Source: Huiozyma naganishii CBS 8797 | Taxonomy: Eukaryota; Ascomycota; Saccharomycetes; Saccharomycetales; Saccharomycetaceae | Length of the DNA stretch: 64,000 nt | Direction: 5' to 3' | Assembly (NCBI RefSeq): GCF_000348985.1 | Contig: NC_035922.1 | Span: 1,067,604 to 1,131,603, forward strand | Part shown: piece by piece, positions 55,195 through 59,618 of the stretch | Position numbering within the stretch: the first letter of the stretch is position 1 | How the letters are laid out: every line of letters begins with the position of its first letter | Notes under the pieces: generated by a model | Seen by the model: only the letters and a program-made list of their open reading frames with translations | What the model was told of the DNA's origin: nothing | The model's database searches: none | Made by a program: the position numbers and the translations under genes

Positions 55195-57905
<2,711 letters not shown>

Positions 57906-58100: not shown

Positions 58101-59618
58101 CTACTTGCCGCCCATGGCAGAACGCTTCTTTTCCAACATCCTAGATCTCTCAAAATACAAGTTTGGATGGTCAATCAAAGTCCCCTCGGCGACATCCGCG
58201 CCCTTATGCGTAAACTCAAACACTTTCGTGTTCGCTAAAATGTAATCCCCCTTTTCAGAAAGGTCCAAGACACTGGTTATCTGTTGTTGTGTCAGATTCA
58301 TCGCCTGTAACTCAGAGGTTAGCCGCTCGCTGCTCCAATCCCTGAAGGGACACCCGTGGTAATCGCCCCTCCCGGGCCGAGGTTTCGACAAAATAGTACG
58401 ACAATCCCAGGGCCGGTAATTGATCCTATTACCTTCCAGCCCATAACTGTGCCTGAAATTGTACCTGTACTCTTTATTGAATTTATCCTCGCTGATATGG
58501 CCACCTTGGACAAATGCCTTTGTCCAAAACTTCAGCGACTCGTCCGCGCTCAACCCGATACCCTTCAAAAAAAGGGTCAACTGTTGTCGACCATAGTAAC
58601 GCAAATGGTGGTTCTGCTTCAAACCCTGCATCAGGTTTCTCACGGACAATGGGTAATGCTTGCTGATCTCGGGGGACCACACGGACTCTGCATTGATCTC
58701 GTCGTCGTCGTTGTTTCCGTACCCGTTTGCGCCCTTGCTGTTGTTGTAATCAGACACCGTGTAACCGGAGGACAAGTGGTTCAAGATCGGAACCAGCCTG
58801 TCGTCCTCATTCAGTCTCGGCAGGAATTGGAAAGTCCTCATCAGTTCATCGTTCAAACGTTGTGAGAACTCAGAAGAGATCATCGTCACTTGTTGGAAAT
58901 GGGGCAAGTACGCATACCCATTTTTTATAAACACCTGTCTGTTCCCCAACAGCTCGATGACATTCTCAAAGGGCAACTTTATGAATCTCTCCTGTTGAAA
59001 GTACGCCTGCTTTTGTTGTTCATCTGAGATATTCATTTGGAACTGGAGTAGCGGGGATATTGTTTGGTACAGTTCTTTGGACAGGGTACGTTTCTCCTCC
59101 TCTGTGATGGACTGCGAAGTGGACAAGTGCAAGGACTGCACGAATTTCACTTGGTCTGTGGAGGTCAACATCCCAAATCTAATCTTGAACAGGAGCGTCT
59201 CTGAGCGGACGAATTTGTCTCTGAGCTCTTTCTTCCGGCAAAAGCACAGCCTCAAGATGTAATGCGATATGTAGTCCTTTCTCATATCAGCAACATTATC
59301 GGTCCCGAGAGGCAACAGCTTGTGCAAAAGAGGTTTCATGAGAGACTCCATCTCCTTCAAACTGTAGTTTCTTGAGACGAACGCCTCAATCTCAAGCAGC
59401 ACTTTCAGCCTGTCTATAGCCCACGTCTCAAAATGCTCCAACGTAATCTCCCCAAGGGGCCGCTCATGGTAAAAGGACAGTTTCCCAGTATAAAGTCGTT
59501 CCAACTGTCTTTGCTCTTGCTCCGGTCTGCTGCTGGCCGTTAGCGAGTCATTGCTACCTTCCTCGGCAGAGCCGAAATTCCTCCTAGAGGAAATCCTCTT
59601 CTTCGTCTGTCTAAACAT
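58101..59618 (-). CDS. PRI2: DNA primase large subunit PRI2, with two iron-sulfur ligand positions changed
   Basis: 505 residues (528 in S. cerevisiae). The N-terminal helical domain is conserved (LSFYHERPLGEITLEHFETW), and the C-terminal domain has NHHLRYYGRQQLTLFLKGIG, FNKEYRYNFRHSYGLEGNRI and PRPGRGDYHGCPFRDWS. Primase large subunits bind a [4Fe-4S] cluster through four Cys (336, 417, 434, 474 in S. cerevisiae, from memory). Here the equivalents by exact spacing (81, 17, 40 residues) are Ser325, Cys406, Cys423 and Asn463, so two ligands are missing. Codons read TCC (58646-58644) and AAC (58232-58230). With Pri1 and Pol1/Pol12 it starts Okazaki fragments. Divergent from DCW1 as on chromosome XI. 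Confidence 0.95.
   Translation of the reverse strand: MFRQTKKRISSRRNFGSAEEGSNDSLTASSRPEQEQRQLERLYTGKLSFYHERPLGEITLEHFETWAIDRLKVLLEIEAFVSRNYSLKEMESLMKPLLHKLLPLGTDNVADMRKDYISHYILRLCFCRKKELRDKFVRSETLLFKIRFGMLTSTDQVKFVQSLHLSTSQSITEEEKRTLSKELYQTISPLLQFQMNISDEQQKQAYFQQERFIKLPFENVIELLGNRQVFIKNGYAYLPHFQQVTMISSEFSQRLNDELMRTFQFLPRLNEDDRLVPILNHLSSGYTVSDYNNSKGANGYGNNDDDEINAESVWSPEISKHYPLSVRNLMQGLKQNHHLRYYGRQQLTLFLKGIGLSADESLKFWTKAFVQGGHISEDKFNKEYRYNFRHSYGLEGNRINYRPWDCRTILSKPRPGRGDYHGCPFRDWSSERLTSELQAMNLTQQQITSVLDLSEKGDYILANTKVFEFTHKGADVAEGTLIDHPNLYFERSRMLEKKRSAMGGK

Follow-up and report, generated by a model that had tools for sequence, protein, structure and literature searches.

Replacement of [4Fe-4S] cluster ligands in the DNA primase large subunit of Huiozyma naganishii and other budding yeasts

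The large subunit of DNA primase, Pri2, of H. naganishii carries a serine and an asparagine at the places of C336 and C474, two of the four cysteines that ligate the [4Fe-4S] cluster in S. cerevisiae Pri2. The yeast protein and human PRIM2 (p58), both [4Fe-4S] primase large subunits, are its nearest known counterparts. Judging from aligned sequences, H. naganishii Pri2 is very probably a working primase in which the cluster, a structural clamp, has been lost and the seam that it held has been repacked. Related ligand replacements are found in other budding yeasts.

The PRI2 gene of H. naganishii

The window analyzed is a stretch of 64,000 nucleotides of H. naganishii DNA, in which the gene and the residues of its cluster site lie as follows.

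58101..59618, minus strand: PRI2, DNA primase large subunit, 505 amino acids, stop codon included (open reading frame, structure alignment and PF04104)
58644..58646, minus strand: Ser325 (TCC), at the place of S. cerevisiae C336, first lobe (structure alignment and codons)
58401..58403, minus strand: Cys406 (TGT), ligand C417 retained, first lobe (structure alignment and codons)
58350..58352, minus strand: Cys423 (TGT), ligand C434 retained, second lobe (structure alignment and codons)
58239..58241, minus strand: Ile460, at the place of the cluster-shell Thr471 (codon position counted by hand)
58230..58232, minus strand: Asn463 (AAC), at the place of S. cerevisiae C474, second lobe (structure alignment and codons)

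The frame is uninterrupted over 505 codons, as a first-pass annotation of this DNA had stated, and its product matches the Pfam family PF04104 (DNA_primase_lrg) with 297.5 bits against a cut-off of 22.4. A phmmer comparison with solved structures aligned residues 1–500 with S. cerevisiae Pri2 (8b9a_A, 751.6 bits) and placed Ser325 and Asn463 under C336 and C474, which bears out the annotation's claim that the first and fourth cluster cysteines are replaced. The ligand spacings (81, 17 and 40) are identical to those between positions 336, 417, 434 and 474 of S. cerevisiae Pri2; the annotation had judged a misalignment unlikely, and the alignment from residue 1 to 500 agrees. The nucleotide- or template-binding residues R355, K363, H401, Y395 and Y397 are all present, and the C-terminal domain (CTD) has the fold of the Pri2/PriL orthologue group, predicted structure models drawing on homologues. 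Only two of the four cysteines of a [4Fe-4S]-binding PriL CTD are there. The H. naganishii and S. cerevisiae proteins are 66% identical over the N-terminal part and 73% identical over the CTD; in other proteins that lack ligands the balance falls either way (for example 77 and 70 in P0003).

The annotation had named two alternatives, ligands lying elsewhere and a second, intact PRI2. The whole protein has four cysteines (125, 127, 406 and 423), of which 125 and 127 belong to the N-terminal part, so that four Cys ligands elsewhere in the CTD are impossible; the structure alignment and the cysteine count disclosed no displaced ligands. In the 10,845,821-base, 13-contig genome a second intact PRI2 is absent, since both a protein search and a search with PF04104 at E values up to 1 returned a single locus. 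PRI2 is best read here as encoding the only Pri2 of a Saccharomycetaceae yeast, and an ordinary one. H. naganishii Pri1 has 411 amino acids and an FDIDMDD motif. The neighbor of PRI2 is a plus-strand open reading frame (56187-57905), whose product, we presume, resembles mitochondrial HSP60.

Ligand patterns among yeast homologues and their history

Homologues were collected with three queries, H. naganishii Pri2, N. bracarensis P0027 and Ascoidea P0078. The best 120 of 1313, 864 and 560 matches, respectively, gave 160 distinct proteins, all of which were aligned. Among these matches listed, 137 are C-C-C-C (in the order 336-417-434-474) and 23, here called losers, lack at least one ligand; because the N. 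bracarensis and Ascoidea queries were picked for their missing ligands, the proportion 23 of 160 should not be taken as a census. With the H. naganishii query alone, 18 of the best 120 of 1313, H. naganishii included, depart from C-C-C-C. The commonest departure among the matches listed is S-C-C-N, with eight rows including H. naganishii. C-C-C-L (N. dairenensis and K. africana) and E-Y-L-V occur twice each, and D-Y-C-N, C-C-Y-N, C-Y-C-N, S-C-C-C, C-Y-C-L, E-Y-L-I, E-Y-L-L, D-Y-L-L (N. bracarensis), S-F-C-S (H. blattae), E-Y-C-I (A. rubescens) and E-Y-S-I (Saccharomycopsis crataegensis) once each.

All four ligands are missing in six of the 160 matches listed (P0027, P0136, P0138, P0139, P0140 and P0152), and two are missing in P0004, P0013 and P0030. 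P0004 has Tyr at 434 and Cys at 336 and 417. C434 is the ligand most often retained, being present in 16 and missing in 7 of the 23 losers among the matches listed. P0007 and P0024 (N. dairenensis and K. africana) are without C474 only, and P0023 is without C336 only. These three are possible three-ligand intermediates that might hold a weaker or altered cluster.

A careful tree was built from 63 chosen rows of the 160 after removal of the four ligand columns, and five changes between intact and not intact are needed on it. The five loser groups are a 13-row clade that contains H. naganishii (support 97/86), Nakaseomyces (P0023 and P0027), N. dairenensis, H. blattae and the six rows of Ascoidea/Saccharomycopsis. 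Within the 13-row clade, where K. africana is the only member named outright, C474 is missing in all 13 rows; the ligand patterns (SCCN, DYCN, CCYN, CYCN, CCCL and CYCL) are erratic beyond position 474. The annotation had proposed loss of the cluster in a lineage rather than drift at one site, and the homologues support this, through the uniform lack of C474 and varying other ligands in the clade and through the six rows outside it that are without all four. A quicker tree of all 160 rows needs four changes. There P0030 sits in an unresolved fork adjoining the other 12 clade rows, so that its placement in the clade is less sure.

The number of separate losses was approached with topology tests, the groups for which were named after inspection of the tree. 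N. dairenensis groups with the intact N. castellii as its sister (support 100/99), and forcing N. dairenensis into the 13-row clade was rejected (p 0.0016). Joining Nakaseomyces to that clade was not rejected (p 0.44), joining H. blattae to it was nearly rejected (p 0.056), and joining all four groups together was rejected (p 7e-9). The independence of the losses appears only partly settled. P0023 retains C474, and therefore the loss of C474 in Nakaseomyces would be separate from that in the 13-row clade, unless the residue was regained. The four cysteines are invariant in 102 outgroup rows, which points to loss, not gain, as the direction of change.

Conservation and repacking around the cluster site

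For a comparison across the domain the alignment was divided into 102 outgroup yeasts and a second set of 58 rows, the latter comprising 52 Saccharomycetaceae-like rows and the six-row Ascoidea/Saccharomycopsis clade, assigned to it as a clade of losers on the tree. In the CTD, 40 columns have one exception or none among the 102 outgroup yeasts. Among the 58 rows, the three columns with the most deviants are ligands, 474 (22), 336 (18) and 417 (11), followed by 376 (10), 477 (8), and 435 and 434 (7 each); 22 of the 40 columns have no deviant. This concentration of change at ligand positions exceeds chance. Of 39 near-invariant CTD columns outside the ligands, H. naganishii retains all 39, in agreement with the annotation's remark that the CTD keeps the landmarks of Pri2, and each loser retains 36 to 39. 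H349, R355, K363, K393, Y395, Y397, H401 and Y412 are retained in all 23 losers among the matches listed. No general decay of loser Pri2 is apparent, and selection would seem to act on the rest of the domain.

The changes that accompany ligand loss lie around the cluster. Position 471, Thr in S. cerevisiae Pri2 and Ile in H. naganishii, is Thr, Gln or Ser in all 137 intact proteins and hydrophobic in 12 of 23 losers among the matches listed. Two residues are altered in losers only, P435 (7 of the 23 among the matches listed) and W376, which is Trp in all 137 intact proteins and Phe in 10 of the 23 losers of the same set. Phe376 is found in two distant groups, four rows of the 13-row clade and the six Ascoidea/Saccharomycopsis rows, and is possibly a compensating change. 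Among the matches listed, an acidic residue at 336 is always paired with Tyr417 (8 of 8 rows, in three lineages) and Leu434 always with an aliphatic residue at 474 (5 of 5 rows); the second lobe of the complete losers is mostly Leu-aliphatic. As far as the residues themselves can tell, several lineages converge on acidic 336 with Tyr417 and the cluster shell is repacked.

Position 465 was considered as the source of a replacement ligand. It is Cys in 21 of the 23 losers among the matches listed; of the 31 intact rows in P0001–P0048, 25 have Cys there as well. H. naganishii has Ser there, and together with the frequency of Cys465 in intact rows this excludes a ligand swap for H. naganishii; in other rows it is still possible. 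Tyr353, which we take to be part of a proposed redox path, varies in intact rows also and is therefore uninformative.

Readings of the ligand loss, and other iron-sulfur proteins

The cluster bridges two helical lobes, each of which supplies two cysteines (PMC2852410), and its ligands have been mutated in S. cerevisiae. According to the account in PMC4348247, C336A, C417A and C474A have singly no apparent effect on growth from 23 to 37 °C, C434A causes a severe defect at both 30 and 37 °C, double Cys-to-Ala mutants are temperature-sensitive and a triple mutant is severe. C434 is likewise the natural ligand with the fewest losses. The C336A/C474A allele, one of the viable pairs, which removes the same two ligands that are missing in H. 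naganishii, is viable and temperature-sensitive at 37 °C (PMC4348247). Binding of 55Fe was measured there for two mutants, with a drop of 60% in C434A and of 90% in C417A/C474A, and apo-Pri2 was judged unstable (PMC4348247). By analogy, the viability of the mutants makes an evolutionary path plausible. The laboratory allele is Ala/Ala and temperature-sensitive, whereas the natural forms have Ser/Asn with an altered shell and sustain species. C434Y is reported to be lethal at 37 °C in S. cerevisiae (PMC4348247); P0004, with its natural Tyr434, is a contrary row.

We infer the absence of metal and of the cluster from the ligands and the S. cerevisiae mutant data, and likewise infer activity without the cluster, the mechanism of packing and the order of events. 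C474, in the second lobe, would have been lost in the common ancestor of the 13-row clade, after which the remaining ligands would have been free to drift; differing replacements across lineages are expected once nothing holds the ligands. The seam would be filled through direct packing, by Ser325, Asn463 and Ile460 in H. naganishii and, in the complete losers, by an acidic residue and a Tyr of the first lobe and, in most cases, a pair of aliphatic residues of the second. Pri2 would thus initiate primers and hand them off with no [4Fe-4S] cluster bound, and selection would hold the nucleotide- and template-binding residues because priming would need no electrons from the cluster.

Other explanations start from the letters themselves or from the cysteines that remain. 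A sequencing error, or a degenerating PRI2 copy accompanied by an intact one, is scarcely credible, as there is one PRI2 locus with an open frame, the 39 other near-invariant columns are all present and the same residues stand in seven other homologues; the identical S-C-C-N of these seven makes a sequencing error very unlikely and upholds the annotation's view that simple error does not suffice. Its accompanying statement that AAC lies two bases from either Cys codon holds for TGC and fails for TGT, which is three bases away; TCC is one base from TGC. An altered cluster could be held by Cys406 and Cys423 with Ser325, Asn463 or outside ligands, as a labile [4Fe-4S], a [3Fe-4S] or a [2Fe-2S] cluster, perhaps of shifted potential. 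Ser ligates Fe in some proteins and Asn is a poor Fe ligand. The two cysteines of H. naganishii and the C434 of 16 of the 23 losers among the matches listed might point to an altered or weakened cluster in partial losers, S. cerevisiae C434A retains about 40% of its 55Fe (PMC4348247), and three-ligand Pri2 proteins may still bind a cluster. For H. naganishii this explanation is nevertheless unlikely, given that the retained cysteines vary within the clade (C417/C434, C336/C417, C336/C434 or C434 alone), that Leu or Tyr, unable to ligate, stand at ligand places in clade rows, and that C417A/C474A loses 90% of its iron in S. cerevisiae (PMC4348247).

It is also conceivable that Cys406 and Cys423, alone or with Ser and Asn, bind zinc or form a disulfide as a substitute clamp, these being the cysteines retained in the eight S-C-C-N rows, one per lobe. 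One of the two is gone in clade rows P0002, P0004, P0013 and P0030, and a disulfide in the nucleus would be unusual, so that such a clamp is highly improbable. A working, cluster-less primase with a repacked seam is preferred to all of these. An initiation module of this kind has a likeness in the PriX subunit of Sulfolobus solfataricus, which resembles the PriL CTD and needs no Fe-S cluster; the Fe-S domain of PriL is dispensable for priming by PriSLX (PMC5700102). In that enzyme PriX forms a third subunit of its own and PriL retains its Fe-S domain, whereas in H. naganishii the large subunit itself has lost ligands.

The role of the primase cluster is debated, as a structural clamp or as a DNA-mediated redox switch (PMC5700102, PMC11941123). 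For human primase a redox switch was put forward in 2017 (O'Brien et al., cited in both), and the PriL cluster has been called highly conserved (PMC12770985). Ligand loss would argue against an obligatory redox role, and the cluster is apparently dispensable for DNA priming in these yeasts. Y395 and Y397, residues that carry mutations in solved yeast structures according to the structure titles, are presumably part of a proposed charge path; they are invariant in the 23 losers among the matches listed, which suggests that their conservation is independent of the cluster. A broader reading is likely, although less so than that for H. naganishii: budding yeasts lost the primase cluster repeatedly, on one occasion in the common ancestor of the clade, with convergent replacements (an acid and Tyr for the first lobe, paired aliphatic residues for the second); it is a replaceable clamp; redox switching is dispensable for eukaryotic priming and hand-off; and nucleic acid contact, not electron transfer, accounts for the conservation of Tyr395 and Tyr397.

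The set adds eukaryotic primases seemingly without a cluster in the large subunit itself and would illustrate the loss of a metal cofactor from an essential replication protein, with a readable signature of repacking. In the full-text literature, covering titles and the starts of abstracts and excluding subscription papers, we found no description of natural loss of Pri2 ligands; one may be in print already. Extant yeasts in which one to four ligands are replaced, set beside four-Cys relatives (as N. dairenensis beside N. castellii), form a natural experiment, and loser and intact Pri2 proteins are open to production, measurement and swapping into S. cerevisiae.

Other nuclear Fe-S proteins of the genome were inspected by eye, their names and ligand positions being our assumption. 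Five of the six (Pol3, Rev3, the Pol2 core, Rad3 and Chl1) have four Cys in the cluster motif. The sixth is located as follows.

L013:707-5323 on contig C5, minus strand: Dna2 (comparison with the solved DNA2 chain 5eaw_A)

Dna2 has Cys567, Cys815 and Cys818, and Ser824 where 5eaw_A has the last Cys of CxxC-x5-C; we take these four positions to be the cluster ligands. As five of the six others retain four Cys, a general collapse of nuclear Fe-S proteins is ruled out, and the change is largely peculiar to Pri2, Dna2 being one possible companion. The cluster-assembly families matched in the genome are MMS19_N, Fe_hyd_lg_C and two ParA, presumably Met18, Nar1 and Nbp35/Cfd1.
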